The notes under the pieces are model-generated. The model made no database searches. It worked only from the letters and a program-made list of their open reading frames with translations, and had not been told where the DNA came from. A program made the position numbers and the translations under genes. Source: Candidatus Nitrospira allomarina (GTDB lineage: Bacteria > Nitrospirota > Nitrospiria > Nitrospirales > UBA8639). Taken from it: a stretch of 64,000 nucleotides of DNA. The stretch lies in assembly GCF_032050975.1 (NCBI RefSeq), contig NZ_CP116967.1:4213001-4277000 (forward strand), given 5' to 3'. Of this stretch, positions 46,236 to 53,127 are shown piece by piece (position 1 is the first letter of the stretch; each line of letters starts with the position of its first letter).

Positions 46236-46335
46236 TTCATAAAAATTTTTCCGACCTGCATACCTACAGTCGCATTGGATCACAAAGCTAATAGTTAGGT
46301 ATGCAAATTTGATCTCGTCCAGCTACCCTAAGGAG
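46236..46335 (+). promoter_or_regulatory. Degenerate c-di-GMP-I (GEMM-I) riboswitch-like leader
   Basis: The region aligns with the two intact riboswitches downstream: TTCATAAAA...TTCCGA, ACCTAC, GATCACAAAGCTA in place of GTCGCAAAGCCC, and CGTCCAGCTACC in place of CGTCCGGCTACC. The GNRA hairpin has decayed (AGTCGCAT) and a 10-bp inverted repeat TGCATACCTA/TAGGTATGCA now encloses the core. It sits directly upstream of the first paralogue. Probably derived from the same duplication; function uncertain. Confidence 0.5.
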
Positions 46336-46347
46336 GGGGTAATACCT

Positions 46348-46476
46348 ATGAAAAGGATTTGGATTTCAATCCGAATACCACAAGGAACAGGGTATGACCC
46401 CACAAATAACCTCCCTGAGTTTTGCAGCCAGAATTACAGCTACCCTCGTTTTTTTTCTACATGGAATAATCACTAG
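46348..46476 (+). CDS. Leader upstream ORF overlapping the main gene (copy 1)
   Basis: 42 codons from ATG 46348 preceded by AAGGAGGGGG, a strong ribosome site. It encodes MKRIWISIRIPQGTGYDPTN and passes the main start at 46394 in the +1 frame before stopping. The IRIPQG.(Y)DP core recurs in the two other leaders. It may couple or limit translation of the main gene. Whether the peptide is made is unknown. Confidence 0.4.
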   Translation: MKRIWISIRIPQGTGYDPTNNLPEFCSQNYSYPRFFSTWNNH

Positions 46477-47635
46477 CCCCGCCTTCTCTGCTTCTTCCAT
46501 CCAACTTGCCTGGACCGGGAGTCCGGAATCTGACCTGATGGGATATTATGTATATATGGGAACATCGCAAAGGTCTTACCACATTACGAAAAATGCAGGA
46601 CTCAACCCATCATATGTTTTCCAAAACCTCCCGGATGGACTCACCTACTATTTTACGGTCACAGCCTATGATCAATCGGGAAACATCAGTGTACCGGCAG
46701 AGGAAGTGGCTATTGCCCTTCCCACACAAAACACAAACCCGAATCCTCATAAGAATCAGGACATGAATGGGGATGGAAAGGCCGACCTGGTCTTTCGAAA
46801 CACGAAAACCGGAGAGGTAGTCCTGTGGCTGCTCAGTGGCTCCAGCGGCACAGCCTCCGGCATTCTGGGCCAATTACCCACCGAATGGGCTTTGAGGGGA
46901 ACGGGCGATGTGAATGGGGACGGGAAGGCCGATCTCATTTGGCGCAATGACACGAGCGGCGCCGTGGCCATCTGGTTGATAAATGGCTTGACCATCATGT
47001 CCACAAGCTTTCTCGGCAGCGCGCCGACGGCTTGGGATATTCAGGCCGTTGGGGATCTCAACGGCGACGGCAAAGCCGATCTCGTCTGGCGCAACATCCT
47101 TGATGGCAATACCGCCATTTGGCTCATGAATGAAAGCACAATTGGTTCCGCTGGTTTTCCGGGTGGTGTCTCGTTAGGGTGGCAGATTGCTGCAATGGGC
47201 GATGTGAATGGGGACGGGAAGGCCGATATTATTTGGCGCAATGACACGAACGGTGCGGTGGCTGTGTGGTTGATGAATGGCGACACCATCACCTCCACGA
47301 GTTTCCCTGGTAGTGCACCGACGGCTTGGGATATTCAAGCCAGCGGGGATCTCAACGGCGATGGCAAAGCCGACCTCGTCTGGCGGAATACTCTTGATGG
47401 CAATACCGCCATTTGGCTCATGAATGGATCGGCAATTGCCTCCTCAGGATTCCCAGCCACTGTGCAGACGACATGGCAGATAGCAGGAGCAGAAGATGTG
47501 AATGGGGATGGCAAAACAGACGTCATTTGGCGCAACAACAGTGATGGAGCCGTAGCGGTATGGCTGATGAACGGCGCCACCATAGCCTTCACGAACTTTC
47601 CCGGTGCTGCTTCTCCGGACTGGGAAATCCAGTAA
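46394..47635 (+). CDS. Secreted Fn3 plus FG-GAP (VCBS-like) repeat protein, paralogue 1
   Basis: 413 residues. Signal peptide ends near SPAFSASS; then one Fn3-like domain (IQLAWTGSPESDLMGYYVYM to VPAEEVAIAL, residues 36-110). Residues 122-413 hold six near-equal repeats of about 49 residues, each with D.NGDGKAD(L/I).WRN, a GAVA(I/V)WLMNG strand and a closing W.IQ. The DxNGDGxxD loop is a calcium-binding type. Six blades suggest a closed beta-propeller. No C-terminal anchor. AAGGA precedes the ATG at 46394. A secreted matrix or adhesion role is inferred. Confidence 0.85.
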   Translation: MTPQITSLSFAARITATLVFFLHGIITSPAFSASSIQLAWTGSPESDLMGYYVYMGTSQRSYHITKNAGLNPSYVFQNLPDGLTYYFTVTAYDQSGNISVPAEEVAIALPTQNTNPNPHKNQDMNGDGKADLVFRNTKTGEVVLWLLSGSSGTASGILGQLPTEWALRGTGDVNGDGKADLIWRNDTSGAVAIWLINGLTIMSTSFLGSAPTAWDIQAVGDLNGDGKADLVWRNILDGNTAIWLMNESTIGSAGFPGGVSLGWQIAAMGDVNGDGKADIIWRNDTNGAVAVWLMNGDTITSTSFPGSAPTAWDIQASGDLNGDGKADLVWRNTLDGNTAIWLMNGSAIASSGFPATVQTTWQIAGAEDVNGDGKTDVIWRNNSDGAVAVWLMNGATIAFTNFPGAASPDWEIQ

Positions 47636-48203
47636 GCGGAACAAAAAAAATCCCTAGACCACTCCCCTGAATGGCCTCATGGGCCAACATCAACAATCCC
47701 ATTCAAACAAATTTTCTCCCCGGCTTACCTAGGCCAAATAAATCTCACCCCAATCTGGAAGAATTCTCTCGCCTCCCTCATCTTTTCCGCATACACAACA
47801 TCCATCAATCTCTCCCTTCCTTGGCACCCAATGATTTCAAGCTCCATGAGAGATTCCCATCGCTCCTCCATCCTGCATAATCATGATTATCGTGATTCGG
47901 CCGTTCAGCCAGTTGTACCTTCCCGCTGTTGGCTCGGACATTGGTCTCCAGGAAATTCACGGATTAGCGGGCCCTTGCTCTCTTCCTTTGCTAGGCACGT
48001 GTAATTTTCTTTTCTTCTTCCATAATCCTTCTGATCGTTTTTTTTATTTTCTCCGAAGTTCCTCTGCATAGTTTTTCCAACCTTTAATATTTTTGTCTCT
48101 AAAGTTTTCCCTTACTTCTCCGAAATGTTCGGCAGACCGTTTGGGGGTATAAAGGACATAATAAGGAGACAGAGGATTAAAAAAATTTGACCAATTCATA
48201 AAA
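47636..48203. other. Intergenic, including the duplicated upstream leader
   Basis: No gene. From about 48100 to 48203 the sequence resembles 51675-51780 (shared TAAAGTTTT, TTCGGCAGACCGTTTGG), the promoter-proximal part of the duplicated leader. Confidence 0.5.
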
Positions 48204-48298
48204 TCTTCTTCCCGAAACGGCACACCTACTGTGAAGTAGGGTCGCAAAGCCCGGAGTCAGGTCACCACGCCTGACCGTCCGGCTACCGAAGGAAGACA
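48204..48298 (+). promoter_or_regulatory. Cyclic-di-GMP-I (GEMM-I) riboswitch, copy 2
   Basis: The aptamer hallmarks are all present. P1 is TCTTCC/GGAAGA. P2 is CCTACT-GTGA-AGTAGG with a GNRA tetraloop. The conserved core GTCGCAAAGCC follows. P3 is GGAGTCAGG with CCTGACCGTCC, and the tetraloop-receptor side reads CGGCTACCGA. The gene starts 59 nt later. The ligand is c-di-GMP by family; binding was not tested. Confidence 0.9.
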
Positions 48299-48320
48299 TC
48301 ATTTGCAGGGGGAGGAGAAG

Positions 48321-48440
48321 ATGAGGACTTCGGTCCACATACGACAAGGAGTAGAGTATGATCCGACCAACCACCCCCTTGGGTTTCAAAATCACACATA
48401 CGGCAGTCCTGCCCCTGCTCCTCTTCGTTTTGCTTGTTAG
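48321..48440 (+). CDS. Leader upstream ORF overlapping the main gene (copy 2)
   Basis: 39 codons from ATG 48321, preceded by GGGGGAGGAGAAG. It encodes MRTSVHIRQGVEYDP and runs out of frame through the main ATG at 48358. It contains the main gene's ribosome site AAGGAG. The peptide core is shared with the two sister leaders. Confidence 0.4.
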   Translation: MRTSVHIRQGVEYDPTNHPLGFQNHTYGSPAPAPLRFAC

Positions 48441-50958
48441 CCCCGCCTATTCGGCTTCCTCCATCCAGGTAACCTGGGACGCAAATACCGAATCGGATTT
48501 AGCAGGATATAAAATTTACAAACGGACCTTACCTTCTCAAGATTTTGGACAACCTATATTTTCAGGAATGCCTGGTAATCCATCCTCCCCCTCAACAACC
48601 GTCGCCGGACTCAATGGAGGGACAACCTATGGATTTATAGCGACAGCCTTTGATACAGCCGGAAATGAAAGTGCCCCTACGACAGAAGTACCAATTACTT
48701 TCCCCCCAAGCTCGCCGCCGCCACCATCCCCGCCGCCAGCTGACACCACCGCCCCGACGGTCACCCTGACCGCCCCCAGCGCGGGCACCGTCTCCGGCAT
48801 GGTCATGGTCAGCGCCACCGCCAGTGATAACGTCGGCATCGTGGGGGTGCAATTCCGCCTCCAGGGCGCCAACCTCGGCTCCGAAGATACGAGTAGTCCC
48901 TACAGCACGAGCTGGAATACCGCCACCGTGGCCAATGGCACGTACACCCTCACGGCCATCGCCCGCGATGCCGCGGGCAATACGAAAACCTCAGGATCAA
49001 TTGTGGTCACAGTGAGCAGTAACAGTACGCCGCCCCCACCCTCAGCATTCAGCATTTCAAACCTGGCCGTCGCCAGTGGGCAAACCTATGTCGTGCCCAC
49101 CTCCGGACTCCAACCCGGGGGCAGGGTGTATATCGACCGCGCCTTTACCTTTACGACCATTCCCGCCGGCCTGCAGGGAGCGGCATATGTCCGAACTGCG
49201 AATGATGACAAAGCTGCGACCACGAGCGCTTTCCTCAGCTTTACCGTCAATCAACCCGTCTCCGTGTCGGTCGCCCATGACGTACGCATCACCCCGAAAC
49301 CCTCGTGGCTGAGCACTTTTACAGACACCGGCACGAGTCTAGGGACGTCGGATACGACCCTCCGCCTATTTGTGCGGTCCTTCCCGGCCGGCACTATTAC
49401 CCTCGGGGGCAATGCCGGTGATGGATTGAGCATGTATTCTGTCATCGTGAAATCAGAGAGCGGTACTCCTGATGACACCACTGCCCCCACGATCACGCTG
49501 ACCGCCCCCAGCGCGGGCACCGTCTCCGGCACGGTGACCGTCACGGCCAGTGCCAGCGATAATGTCGGCGTCGTGGGCGTCCAATTCCGCCTCCAGGGCG
49601 CCAACCTCGGCCCCGAGGATATAAGCAGTCCCTACAGCATCAGCTGGGATACCACCACCGTGACCAATGGCGCGTATACCCTCTCGGCCAGTGCCCGCGA
49701 TGCCGCGGGCAATACGAAAACCTCAGGATCAATTGTGGTCACGGTGAGCAATTCAACCACCCCGCCTCCGGATACCACGCCCCCGACGGTCACCCTGTCC
49801 GCCCCCAGCACAAGCAGCGTCTCCGGCACGGTGACCGTCACGGCCAGCGCCAATGATAATGTCGGCATCACGGGCGTCCAATTCCGCATCCAGGGTGCCA
49901 ACCTCGGCCCCGAGGATATAAGCAGTCCCTACAGCATCAGCTGGGATACCACCACCATGCCGAATGGCCCGTATACCCTCTCGGCCATCGCCCGCGATGC
50001 TGCGGGCAATACGACCACCGCTGCCCCCCGCACAGTCACCGTGAGTAATTCCAGCACGCCCCCAACCTCACCCCAAAATCACGATCTGAATGGGGACGGC
50101 AAAGCCGACCTGATTTGGCGAAACACAAAAACCGGCGAGGTGGCCGGATGGCTGCTCAATGGAACAAGCATCGCGACCTCGGGCCTCCTGGGCCAGTTAC
50201 CCATGGACTGGACGATGAGTGGAGTGGGCGATCTAAATGGGGACACCAAGGCAGACCTTGTCTGGCGCAATAGCATCAGCGGCGCAGTAGTTATCTGGCT
50301 GATGGACGGCTTGACCATCACTTCCACAGGCTTTCTCGGCGCTGTCGCCACGAGTTGGGATATCCAAGCCATCGAGGATATGGACGGTGACGGCAAAGCC
50401 GACCTCCTCTGGCGCAACACCACTGATGGCCACACCGCCATATGGCTCATGAATGGAACGGCGATTGTTTCCACAGGTTTTCCGGCGGGTGTATCGTTAG
50501 GGTGGCAGATCGCGGGCGTGGGCGATGTGAATGGGGATGGGAAAGCCGATGTCATTTGGCGTCATGACACCAGCAGCACAGTGGCCATCTGGCTAATGAA
50601 CGGCTTGACCATCACGTCCACCGGCTTTCCAGGGAGCGCCCCGACAGTTTGGGAAATTCAAGCCCTTGGAGATGCCAATGGCGATGGCAAAGCTGACCTC
50701 GTCTGGCGCAACGCTACAGACGGCAATACCGCCATATGGCTCATGAATGGAACGGCGATAGCCGCTTCCGGCTTTCCTGGGACAGTGTCGCGGACATGGC
50801 AGATGTCGGGAGCAAACGATGTGAATGGTGACGGAAAAGCCGATATTATCTGGCGCAATCGCAGCAATGGAGGAGTGGCGGTTTGGCTGATGAACGGTTT
50901 GACCATCACATCCACGGGCTTTCCCGGAGCCACTTCCACAGACTGGGAAATTCAGTAG
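48358..50958 (+). CDS. Secreted Fn3, Ig-like and FG-GAP repeat protein, paralogue 2
   Basis: 866 residues. Signal peptide ends near SPAYSASS. Order: Fn3-like (36-115), Pro-rich linker PPSSPPPPSPPPA, Ig-like domain (129-220, TAPTVTLTAPSAGTVSG and VAN GTYTLTAIARDAAGN), a distinct beta domain (about 228-370, FSISNLAVASGQTYVVPTSG), two more Ig-like copies (375-468 and 475-565), then six FG-GAP repeats (575-866) with the DxNGDGxADL.WRN calcium loop. The three Ig-like copies are nearly identical at DNA level, a sign of recent duplication. Same C-terminal stop after WEIQ as paralogue 1. Probably a large calcium-stabilised matrix adhesin. Confidence 0.87.
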   Translation: MIRPTTPLGFKITHTAVLPLLLFVLLVSPAYSASSIQVTWDANTESDLAGYKIYKRTLPSQDFGQPIFSGMPGNPSSPSTTVAGLNGGTTYGFIATAFDTAGNESAPTTEVPITFPPSSPPPPSPPPADTTAPTVTLTAPSAGTVSGMVMVSATASDNVGIVGVQFRLQGANLGSEDTSSPYSTSWNTATVANGTYTLTAIARDAAGNTKTSGSIVVTVSSNSTPPPPSAFSISNLAVASGQTYVVPTSGLQPGGRVYIDRAFTFTTIPAGLQGAAYVRTANDDKAATTSAFLSFTVNQPVSVSVAHDVRITPKPSWLSTFTDTGTSLGTSDTTLRLFVRSFPAGTITLGGNAGDGLSMYSVIVKSESGTPDDTTAPTITLTAPSAGTVSGTVTVTASASDNVGVVGVQFRLQGANLGPEDISSPYSISWDTTTVTNGAYTLSASARDAAGNTKTSGSIVVTVSNSTTPPPDTTPPTVTLSAPSTSSVSGTVTVTASANDNVGITGVQFRIQGANLGPEDISSPYSISWDTTTMPNGPYTLSAIARDAAGNTTTAAPRTVTVSNSSTPPTSPQNHDLNGDGKADLIWRNTKTGEVAGWLLNGTSIATSGLLGQLPMDWTMSGVGDLNGDTKADLVWRNSISGAVVIWLMDGLTITSTGFLGAVATSWDIQAIEDMDGDGKADLLWRNTTDGHTAIWLMNGTAIVSTGFPAGVSLGWQIAGVGDVNGDGKADVIWRHDTSSTVAIWLMNGLTITSTGFPGSAPTVWEIQALGDANGDGKADLVWRNATDGNTAIWLMNGTAIAASGFPGTVSRTWQMSGANDVNGDGKADIIWRNRSNGGVAVWLMNGLTITSTGFPGATSTDWEIQ

Positions 50959-51781
50959 CACTAATATTACAAACACAAGAATGGTAACGACATAAGGCCC
51001 CGGACCTAACCTGAAGAAGGGACGTCTGAAAAATTACCACACGGGAGGACGAGGCGAGACCTTAACCTCAGACGACGGGTCAATCATAACCGGAAGGCAA
51101 CTGCCGTACGGACAAACCAGCAGGTTAGACCCTCTCACAAACACCAAGCAGGCTTACCCCCACCTTATCTGAAAAAACCTCCCGCCCATTCTTCACAAAT
51201 TCTCTCCCTTGCCCCGACTACCTCGAATTTTGCTGATTTCTTATCCTACCTTGAAGGTCAAACGCGGCCAATTCGAGGATATCGGAAGTTTTTTCTACTC
51301 TTTGAAACACGACATGGAAAATTGGGAATCCATCCTCCCTCAACCGTAGCACTCATTCCGGTATTTAGCAGAGAGCGATCACCTAGGCCTGCCTTTTCCT
51401 TTGATAGGATGCCCGGATGCAAACATTGGTGCGAGTGTATTTCCTCCTTTGCCAATAGAGATACCTGATTGCCACCAGAAGGTATGAAGGAGAAATTCTC
51501 TCCCTGGGGGATCCAACATTTCTCTAGCAGCCGAAAGAAAAAAAAAGGCAATTTTCTTCTGGAGATCGCACCTTCATTCACAGAGCTTCATATTTTTGCA
51601 TCAAACACAATTTCCTCCAGTTGGTTTAAAGATTTTTCTCTCAAAAGTTTTTTGTACTTCCCTATCGCTGCTACCCCTAAAGTTTTTCTTTACAGGTCCG
51701 ATATAGTTCGGCAGACCGTTTGGAGGTCTAGGGTACAAACCAGAGCAACAGACGGCAAAAGAAAGTCCGCCAATTCATGAA
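50959..51781. other. Intergenic tract upstream of the third leader
   Basis: About 820 bp without a supported gene. The last 100 bp match the segment before the copy 2 riboswitch. Frames at 51258-51581 and 51469-51780 are not coding by any sign. Confidence 0.5.
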
Positions 51782-51878
51782 ATCCTCTTCCCGAAACGGC
51801 ACACCTATTGTGAAGTAGGGTCGCAAAACCAGGAGTCAGGTCCCCAAGCCTGATCGTCCGGCCACCGAGGGAAGGCGT
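51782..51878 (+). promoter_or_regulatory. Cyclic-di-GMP-I (GEMM-I) riboswitch, copy 3
   Basis: Same architecture as copy 2: P1 CTTCCC/GGGAAG, P2 CCTATT-GTGA-AGTAGG, core GTCGCAAAACC, P3 GGAGTCAGG with CCTGATCGTCC and CGGCCACCGA. Two core positions differ from copy 2 (AAAGCC to AAAACC, CTACC to CCACC). The gene starts 58 nt downstream. It is a GEMM-I member, though the core changes could alter affinity. Confidence 0.85.
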
Positions 51879-51899
51879 CATTCGCAGGGGGAGGAGAGG

Positions 51900-52124
51900 A
51901 TGAGGACTTCGGTCCGAATACCACAAGGAGTCGACTATGGTCCGCCCTATGATCCCCTGGAATTTCGCCACCAGAACTGTTGCAGGCCTTGCATTCCTGT
52001 TCATCGGATTATTCAGCAGCCCGGCCTTCTCAGCATCTTCGGTCCAACTAACCTGGGACGCAAGTCCGGAACCGGATTTAAAGGGATACAATGTGTACAT
52101 GGGAACATCCCAGGGGTCCTATAA
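51900..52124 (+). CDS. Leader upstream ORF overlapping the main gene (copy 3)
   Basis: 74 codons from ATG 51900, after GGGGGAGGAGAGG. It encodes MRTSVRIPQGVDYGPPYDP and crosses the main start at 51937 in the +1 frame. The length beyond the overlap differs from the sister copies, so any constraint would lie on the first dozen codons. Confidence 0.4.
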   Translation: MRTSVRIPQGVDYGPPYDPLEFRHQNCCRPCIPVHRIIQQPGLLSIFGPTNLGRKSGTGFKGIQCVHGNIPGVL

Positions 52125-53127
52125 CACCACAAAAAATATCGGACTCAACCCTTCCTTTGTTTTTCAGAACTTGTCGCAGGGAATGACCTATTATTTTACA
52201 GTCACGGCATATGATCAGACAAACAACGAAAGTCTACCCTCGGAAGAAGTGAGTGTGAAAATTCCCGATATCATTACACCGACAACCCCTGGAAATCTCA
52301 CGTTGACTTCAACATCAGGCACCCAAGTGGCCTTTTCATGGACAGCTTCAACCGACAATGTCGGCGTAACCGGATATGATGTGGCCCGGAACAATGTGAC
52401 CATCGGGCAATCTACCACCAATGCCTTTGTGGATAAAACGATTAGTCCGGGCATGACTTACCTCTATACCGTCAAAGCCCGGGATGCCGGCGGGAATGTA
52501 TCCGCATCGTCAAGTCCACTTTCCGTATCGGTCCCACTCGTCCCACCACAAGATATGATCTCGCCGTCGGTACCCCAAAACCTCACGTTGACTTCAACAT
52601 CAGGCACCCAAGTGGCCTTTTCATGGACAGCTTCAACTGATAATGTCGGCGTGACGGGATATGATGTGGCTCGGAATAATGTAGTCATCGGGCAACCCAC
52701 CACCACTGGCTTTGTGGATAAAACCATCAGTCCGGGTATTTCCTATTTCTATACCGTGAGGGCTCGGGATGCCAACGGCAATGTATCCGCATGGTCGGCC
52801 CCCCTGCAGTTCACTACTCCCCAGGTAATGGCCCAACTGGAAGTGTTCGTCAGCGGTAGTGGATCCGTCCTTTCGACTCCTGACGGAATTAATTGCCCAC
52901 GACGAAGTTGCTCAACCAACTACCCAAATCAAACTGTCGTGACCTTGACCCCTAACCCAAGAAATGGTTGGACATTTTCAGGATGGTCCGGCAGCTGTAC
53001 CGGGACTGCAACATGTTCATTAACACTCACGGGAAACAGAACCGTTCAGGCCCATTTCACGAAGGGTTCTCAGGCAGGTCCTGGCAAAGACTCTCGAAAT
53101 GTTAAAAGACAAAGACGAACGAGATGA
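51937..53127 (+). CDS. Secreted protein with three Fn3-like domains and an InlB-like B-repeat, paralogue 3
   Basis: 396 residues. Signal peptide ends near SPAFSASS. Domain 1 (residues 36-110) matches the Fn3 of paralogues 1 and 2. Two further Fn3-like copies (about 112-205 and 208-300, TPGNLTLTSTSGTQVAFSWT) are nearly identical to each other in DNA. Then a divergent InlB-type repeat (303-376, LEVFVSGSGSVLSTPDG with cysteines and WSGSCTGTATCSLTL) and a basic tail DSRNVKRQRRTR. FG-GAP repeats are absent, unlike in its paralogues. AAGGAG lies before ATG 51937. Confidence 0.85.
   Translation: MVRPMIPWNFATRTVAGLAFLFIGLFSSPAFSASSVQLTWDASPEPDLKGYNVYMGTSQGSYNTTKNIGLNPSFVFQNLSQGMTYYFTVTAYDQTNNESLPSEEVSVKIPDIITPTTPGNLTLTSTSGTQVAFSWTASTDNVGVTGYDVARNNVTIGQSTTNAFVDKTISPGMTYLYTVKARDAGGNVSASSSPLSVSVPLVPPQDMISPSVPQNLTLTSTSGTQVAFSWTASTDNVGVTGYDVARNNVVIGQPTTTGFVDKTISPGISYFYTVRARDANGNVSAWSAPLQFTTPQVMAQLEVFVSGSGSVLSTPDGINCPRRSCSTNYPNQTVVTLTPNPRNGWTFSGWSGSCTGTATCSLTLTGNRTVQAHFTKGSQAGPGKDSRNVKRQRRTR

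Follow-up and report, generated by a model that had tools for sequence, protein, structure and literature searches.

A 64,000-nucleotide stretch of the genome of Candidatus Nitrospira allomarina (positions 4213001-4277000 of the single 4.55 Mb contig NZ_CP116967.1; the window, in what follows, is this whole stretch) carries three paralogous genes for secreted proteins, here numbered 1 to 3. Analysis of their leaders suggests a tandem array of whole-module duplicates, in which genes 2 and 3 are controlled by cyclic di-guanosine monophosphate (c-di-GMP) in two layers and gene 1 has left the regulon, a reading to which we assign a probability of roughly 0.7. The duplicated module would consist of a sigma-28 promoter, a c-di-GMP-I riboswitch, two ribosome-binding sites and a signal peptide. 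No part is missing from genes 2 and 3, whose mRNA would be made only with the flagellar sigma factor FliA present. Within that mRNA, ligand binding would close the paired region P1 and thereby sequester a pyrimidine strand that otherwise masks the first Shine-Dalgarno sequence (SD1). The fliA mRNA bears an aptamer of the same class, which is predicted to terminate transcription at high c-di-GMP; since FliA would transcribe genes 2 and 3, the secreted-protein genes are probably controlled twice, with the array downstream of c-di-GMP at both steps. Gene 1 appears to have quit this regulon, as promoter and aptamer are eroded in every species seen, to varying degrees, while SD1 and the coding sequence persist. 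Statistical support from the sequence exists for the aptamers, for the remnant as their homologue, for the promoter-like sequences and for the fliA aptamer with its terminator.

46394..47635, + strand: gene 1, 413 residues; signal peptide, Fn3 and FG-GAP, secreted (Pfam)
48358..50958, + strand: gene 2, 866 residues; Fn3, three Big_7 and FG-GAP, secreted (Pfam)
51937..53127, + strand: gene 3, 396 residues; three Fn3 and InlB-B-repeat, secreted (Pfam)
48209..48290, + strand: c-di-GMP-I riboswitch aptamer of gene 2; RF01051 58.1 bits, E 9e-9; G20, A47 and C92 intact; core 19/19
51788..51869, + strand: c-di-GMP-I riboswitch aptamer of gene 3; RF01051 48.0 bits, E 3e-6; base of P3 weakened (A49.C91, A50.C90)
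46256..46327, + strand: c-di-GMP-I aptamer remnant upstream of gene 1; nhmmer E 3.3e-5, 20.0 bits; core broken; no sigma-28 promoter left

The original prediction, which a model had made from the letters of the window, placed two well-formed GEMM-I aptamers at 48204-48298 and 51782-51878 and a diverged third copy at 46236-46335. A cmscan run with Rfam has recovered the first two well above the gathering score of RF01051 (35 bits), and the core variants quoted for the three copies (GCAAAGCC, GCAAAACC and ACAAAGCT) are correct; the gene-1 leader has given no RF01051 match. Both intact aptamers contain the ligand-contact bases G20, A47 and C92 and form six of six P2 pairs, and the base of P3 is paired at 4/4 positions in gene 2 and at 2/4 in gene 3. 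Because the two pairs lost in gene 3 adjoin the ligand site, graded ligand sensing among the copies, as had been proposed, is plausible. Gene 3 thereby shows what looks like the onset of the decay process seen in gene 1, and the gene-3 leader of genome G003 has A and U at positions 20 and 21. As the window aptamers carry G20, c-di-GMP is predicted as the ligand of genes 2 and 3. Sensing of cyclic GMP-AMP (cGAMP) in the manner of GEMM-Ib has been rejected, given G rather than A at position 20 in both aptamers and canonical GGDEF domains: the five in this genome with a readable motif all have GHxxGD, and none resembles a Hypr cGAMP synthase. The c-di-GMP-I-GGC family (RF03167) has also been discarded; its scores on the window aptamers, 54.0 and 48.3 bits, are near those of RF01051, yet they fall below its gathering score of 59, and the core here is GCAAA, not GCGAA.

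Position 20 varies elsewhere. Two tandem Fn3 modules of this genome (L010:6946-7655 and L010:10022-11838, genome 1139945 and 1143021), ∼94% identical and each with a c-di-GMP-I aptamer, have A in one aptamer and G in the other; in a Geobacter switch, this position separates cGAMP from c-di-GMP. The gene behind the A20 copy is frameshifted (179 vs 562 residues). Across the genus (GTDB UBA8639, lineage IV Nitrospira; 21 genomes in the collection), A occupies this position in about 10 of 108 aptamers, although the readable GGDEF domains of the present genome look like plain c-di-GMP synthases.

Between aptamer and main start codon, the leaders contain a strand that can mask SD1 (anti-SD strand), SD1 itself, a second Shine-Dalgarno sequence (SD2) and an upstream open reading frame (ORF).

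48204..48213, + strand: anti-SD strand of gene 2, UCUUCUUCCC; 5' strand of P1, binds GGAAGA when P1 is closed and can pair with SD1 instead (RNAfold, free and bound)
51783..51792, + strand: anti-SD strand of gene 3, UCCUCUUCCC; covaries with SD1 between genes 2 and 3
48308..48317, + strand: SD1 of gene 2, GGGGGAGGAG; hidden by the anti-SD strand in the fold without ligand
51887..51896, + strand: SD1 of gene 3 (sequence and RNAfold models)
46330..46339, + strand: SD1 of gene 1, AAGGAGGGGG; conserved despite aptamer decay (nine-species alignment)
48346..48351, + strand: SD2 of the main start codon of gene 2, AAGGAG (sequence)
48321..48440, + strand: overlapping upstream ORF of gene 2, 39 residues; gene 2 begins in its +1 frame
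51900..52124, + strand: overlapping upstream ORF of gene 3, 74 residues
46348..46476, + strand: overlapping upstream ORF of gene 1, 42 residues

A matched C-G to U-A change distinguishes the anti-SD strand/SD1 pairings of genes 2 and 3 (AUCUUC/GAAGAU vs AUCCUC/GAGGAU), and SD1 has been found more open in the bound model, in which the bound state is imposed as a folding constraint, in 10/10 gene-2/3 leaders (RNAfold, from P1 as far as the upstream start codon). The start codon and frame of the upstream ORF are kept, and the main start is overlapped out of frame, in 19/19 leaders; the ORF begins 37, 43 or 46 bases before the main start in a constant frame. In these models the maskable SD1 would serve the upstream ORF, so that the aptamer does not plainly gate the main start. 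Of the direct c-di-GMP control originally proposed, the aptamers in the gene-2/3 leaders stand, whereas the control itself would be two-layered, through the probable action of FliA, and less plain at the main start than had been supposed. Given that SD1 would serve the upstream ORF, the sign for the main protein may be OFF, if the ORF blocks the main start, or ON, if the ORF helps it. Between the two folding models, the openness of SD2 has followed no consistent trend in the gene-2/3 leaders, and inspection by eye has revealed no terminator-like T-run behind their aptamers.

The second layer rests on an aptamer at genome position 3556075 (minus strand), which precedes a gene for a FliA/WhiG-family sigma factor; TIGR02479 (196.1 bits, cut-off 189.6) identifies this gene as fliA, and the genome thus contains a FliA-family sigma factor.

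L014:9115-10165, minus strand: fliA with c-di-GMP-I aptamer and terminator/antiterminator; conserved in 22 genomes

The pair of aptamer and fliA is present in 22 genomes examined, and almost all genomes of the genus have it; in all 22 a hairpin and then a T-run lie between the two (the T-run is imperfect in G018). When the leader RNAs of four genomes were cut before the T-run and folded with RNAfold, the aptamer core GGGCGCA paired with the terminator's 5' strand, UGCGCCC; both sides are changed in G024, to GGACGC and GCGTCC, and still match. Since the aptamer core pairs with the terminator strand, ligand binding would free the terminator, and the fliA riboswitch is predicted to be OFF at high c-di-GMP.

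The fold switch itself is an inference, and so are the sign assigned to the main protein, the identity of the ligand, the use of FliA and the transcription start sites. Tentatively, and with somewhat less than an even chance, the same two-layer circuit may operate throughout the genus: c-di-GMP would turn fliA off by riboswitch, FliA-made mRNAs would carry the same class gating an overlapping upstream ORF, the whole would serve, when cells pass from swimming to settling, as a pulse generator or as a tight double lock on surface proteins, and paralogues would exit by joint loss of promoter and aptamer. As to the sign, a possible though uncertain version is an incoherent circuit, in which high c-di-GMP stops fliA but turns ON translation of existing gene-2/3 mRNA and gives a burst of surface protein as the swimmer settles. 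It combines the OFF prediction for fliA with the ON prediction for SD1; it requires that the upstream ORF helps main translation, by a mechanism still hypothetical, and the accessibility of SD2 lends it no consistent trend. Rather unlikely, in our estimate, is a coherent circuit in which the ligand opens SD1, the upstream ORF is translated and ribosomes overrun SD2 and the main start, so that the secreted protein is off together with fliA and the proteins belong to the motile state. The opening of SD1 in every gene-2/3 leader and the out-of-frame overlap in every leader would both agree with such a circuit, as would the resemblance of fliA, and probably of a sister Fn3 family, to OFF switches. 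Gene 1, however, has lost aptamer and promoter yet has kept SD1 and the upstream ORF while its SD2 weakens, which suggests that SD1 aids expression and slightly favours a helping role of the ORF. The conservation of the ORF stop, moreover, has been rejected as proof of translation, as the main reading frame fixes those bases in part and makes it weak evidence.

Membership of genes 2 and 3 in the FliA regulon is suggested by two promoter-like sequences upstream of their aptamers.

48100..48126, + strand: sigma-28 (FliA-type) promoter of gene 2, TAAAGTTT-N11-TCCGAAAT; exact genome match; same place in 7/7 gene-2 leaders
51678..51704, + strand: sigma-28 promoter of gene 3, TAAAGTTT-N11-TCCGATAT; exact match; kept in 3/3 gene-3 leaders

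Both intact aptamers are preceded by TAAAGTTT-N11-TCCGA(A/T)AT, close to the enteric sigma-28 consensus, which is TAAAGTTT-N11-GCCGATAA. Across the 4.55 Mb genome, TAAAGTTTN12CCGAWAW is matched exactly at two sites only, namely the promoters of genes 2 and 3, and against TAAAGTTTN12CCGATAW they show one and zero mismatches, respectively, which marks both as sigma-28-like. A sigma-28 score of 20-21 of 22, at an unchanged distance, has been obtained in 10/10 gene-2/3 leaders. Gene-1 leaders score 14-17, which is background level, and the promoter is gone in the window copy; the gene-1 orthologue G002_1 keeps a crippled promoter with the spacer found in gene 2 of other species (TTAAGTTT-ttccttacttc-TCAGAATT). 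Upstream of 106 aptamers from the genus and its order, the score is at least 18 in 41 cases, compared with 0/106 on the reverse strand, and 53/106 reach p≤0.01 against shuffles, counts that are not independent, as the 106 loci represent perhaps six families. Within the genome itself, 6/9 aptamer loci, two pairs of which are duplicates, reach the 99th percentile of the background. Genes 2 and 3 are thus probably transcribed by FliA.

Several observations weigh against two-layer control. At two mismatches, the sigma-28 pattern is not in genome-wide excess over the reversed control; consequently, only near-exact sites and their positions count, and two-mismatch matches, equally common in that control, have been rejected as evidence. 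The best flagellin gene has only a moderate sigma-28 match (17.5), and the species are not independent of one another. On the RNA side, the bound state stems from the imposed constraint rather than from ligand energy; longer RNA reduces or abolishes the opening of SD1 in some leaders, and folding of four whole leaders (240 bases, counted from the inferred start) has given a mixed picture for SD1, the shorter stretch being used instead. If the promoter-like sequences were due to chance or belonged to another sigma factor, control would fall to the riboswitch alone. A consensus match does not prove use, and the low flagellin score would suit this explanation, but we regard it as improbable, given that exact matches are confined to these two sites in the genome, that high scores are frequent upstream of aptamers and absent from the reverse strand, and that gene 1 has lost its promoter in parallel with its aptamer.

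The loss in gene 1 can be followed through its remnant. Between 46100 and 46500, Rfam has yielded no c-di-GMP family up to E 10; what matches there were belong to unrelated families and lie at chance level, and the copy accordingly fails the RF01051 gathering threshold. When ten gene-2/gene-3 leaders of the genus were made into a DNA profile, with gene-1 sequence excluded, it returned exactly three matches above noise on the window, at 90.3 and 87.6 bits for the two aptamers and at 20.0 bits for 46256-46327. Because a profile without gene-1 sequence matches there at E 3e-5 and 0/1000 Markov shuffles score as high (best 4.5 bits), the diverged third copy of the original prediction is a true aptamer remnant. 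In the window copy, position 20 is U instead of G, the C22-G45 pair is lost and P2 retains 3/6 pairs; judged by its bases, this copy is dead in this genome, in line with the loss of sensing that had been proposed. The suggested comparison of orthologous leaders has separated the copies further: with gene-1 orthologues in eight further species (nine species in total), gene-1 leaders match 18, 17, 16, 15, 15, 15, 12, 12 and 11 of 19 core positions, compared with 16-19 in the ten gene-2/3 leaders. Gene-2 leaders remain recognisable, whereas all nine gene-1 leaders have decayed, each to its own degree and at core positions that vary among species. Even the best orthologue, the nearly intact G002_1, reaches only 27.1 bits with RF01051, below 35.

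In the leader tree, gene-1 leaders form one clade (support 100/100), which places a single split from genes 2 and 3 before the species seen, with the decay later. The leaders of all three genes align from the aptamer via the ribosome-binding sites into the signal peptide, and duplication of a single leader module along with its genes, as had been proposed, is supported by this alignment. In the window, the dead gene-1 leader has acquired a perfect 10-base inverted repeat (TGCATACCTA/TAGGTATGCA, 46257-46305), which is not seen in leaders of other species. That the gene-1 leader is a repurposed RNA element with a different ligand or partner might be read from this new hairpin and from the 3' end and SD1 conserved in nine species, but is very improbable, as the aptamer columns of gene 1 are not more conserved than the flank (0.80 vs 0.84), unlike those of genes 2 and 3 (0.93 vs 0.89), the core breaks at differing positions from species to species, and the hairpin strands are absent from the other aligned leaders.

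The nine aptamers of the genome precede three secreted Fn3 families (five loci), a Flp-type pilin, fliA, a response regulator and one unidentified protein, and relatives at the level of the order add flagellar rod-type proteins; apart from fliA and the window genes, these targets have been assigned by reading translations. This range is the ordinary spread for GEMM. In a second Fn3 family (L001/L003 and orthologues), a separate hairpin that masks the Shine-Dalgarno sequence follows the aptamer and coexists with the folded aptamer, an arrangement suggestive of an OFF switch. The Pfam domains of the window proteins agree with the Fn3/FG-GAP/InlB-repeat secreted proteins of the original prediction. 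Fn3, Big, FG-GAP or InlB repeats stand behind signal peptides that have been assigned by eye only, as would be expected of extracellular adhesin or matrix proteins, and such a putative role fits the domains. The N-terminal Fn3 domain of gene 2 (48358-48700 of the window) is, in this genome (G000), G004 and G011, of a subtype unlike gene 2 elsewhere, although the leaders still group with gene 2; it looks as if the coding part had been swapped behind an unchanged leader, and a reading of the three proteins as clean orthologous sets has been rejected for this reason.

Lineage IV Nitrospira, with which the family UBA8639 is equated in PMC12342949, are marine nitrite oxidisers. Among the open PMC papers searched, none describing c-di-GMP riboswitches in Nitrospira and nothing on c-di-GMP control in lineage IV has been found; by term search, guanidine riboswitches are the only ones mentioned in PMC12342949. 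The present analysis offers a concrete predicted circuit linking pili and secreted proteins to the flagellar sigma factor. The gene-1 series, in addition, constitutes a natural experiment, with riboswitch and promoter at nine stages of loss beside intact copies, so that one can test in what order positions decay and whether the promoter disappears along with the aptamer.

Compared with the RF01051 family, the gene-2/3 aptamers of the window exceed the gathering threshold, keep the three ligand-contact bases and have a GNRA-type P2 loop (GUGA); they differ in the two missing pairs beside the ligand in gene 3 and in the overlapping upstream ORF between aptamer and gene, and the gene-1 copy is dead. 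The Geobacter GEMM-Ib switch, in which an A20G change shifts selectivity from cGAMP to c-di-GMP (PMC6456294), shares the aptamer fold with the window copies, which differ from it by G20. The nearest experimental parallel is Cd1, which belongs to the flgB operon of C. difficile; this class I c-di-GMP riboswitch acts as an OFF switch by termination and controls production of SigD and thereby its regulon (PMC6366702). Both systems place a class I switch, in Nitrospira a predicted OFF switch, on the production of a flagellar sigma factor; in Nitrospira, however, the switch lies directly on fliA, and FliA-type promoters then precede mRNAs that carry a class I switch of their own.

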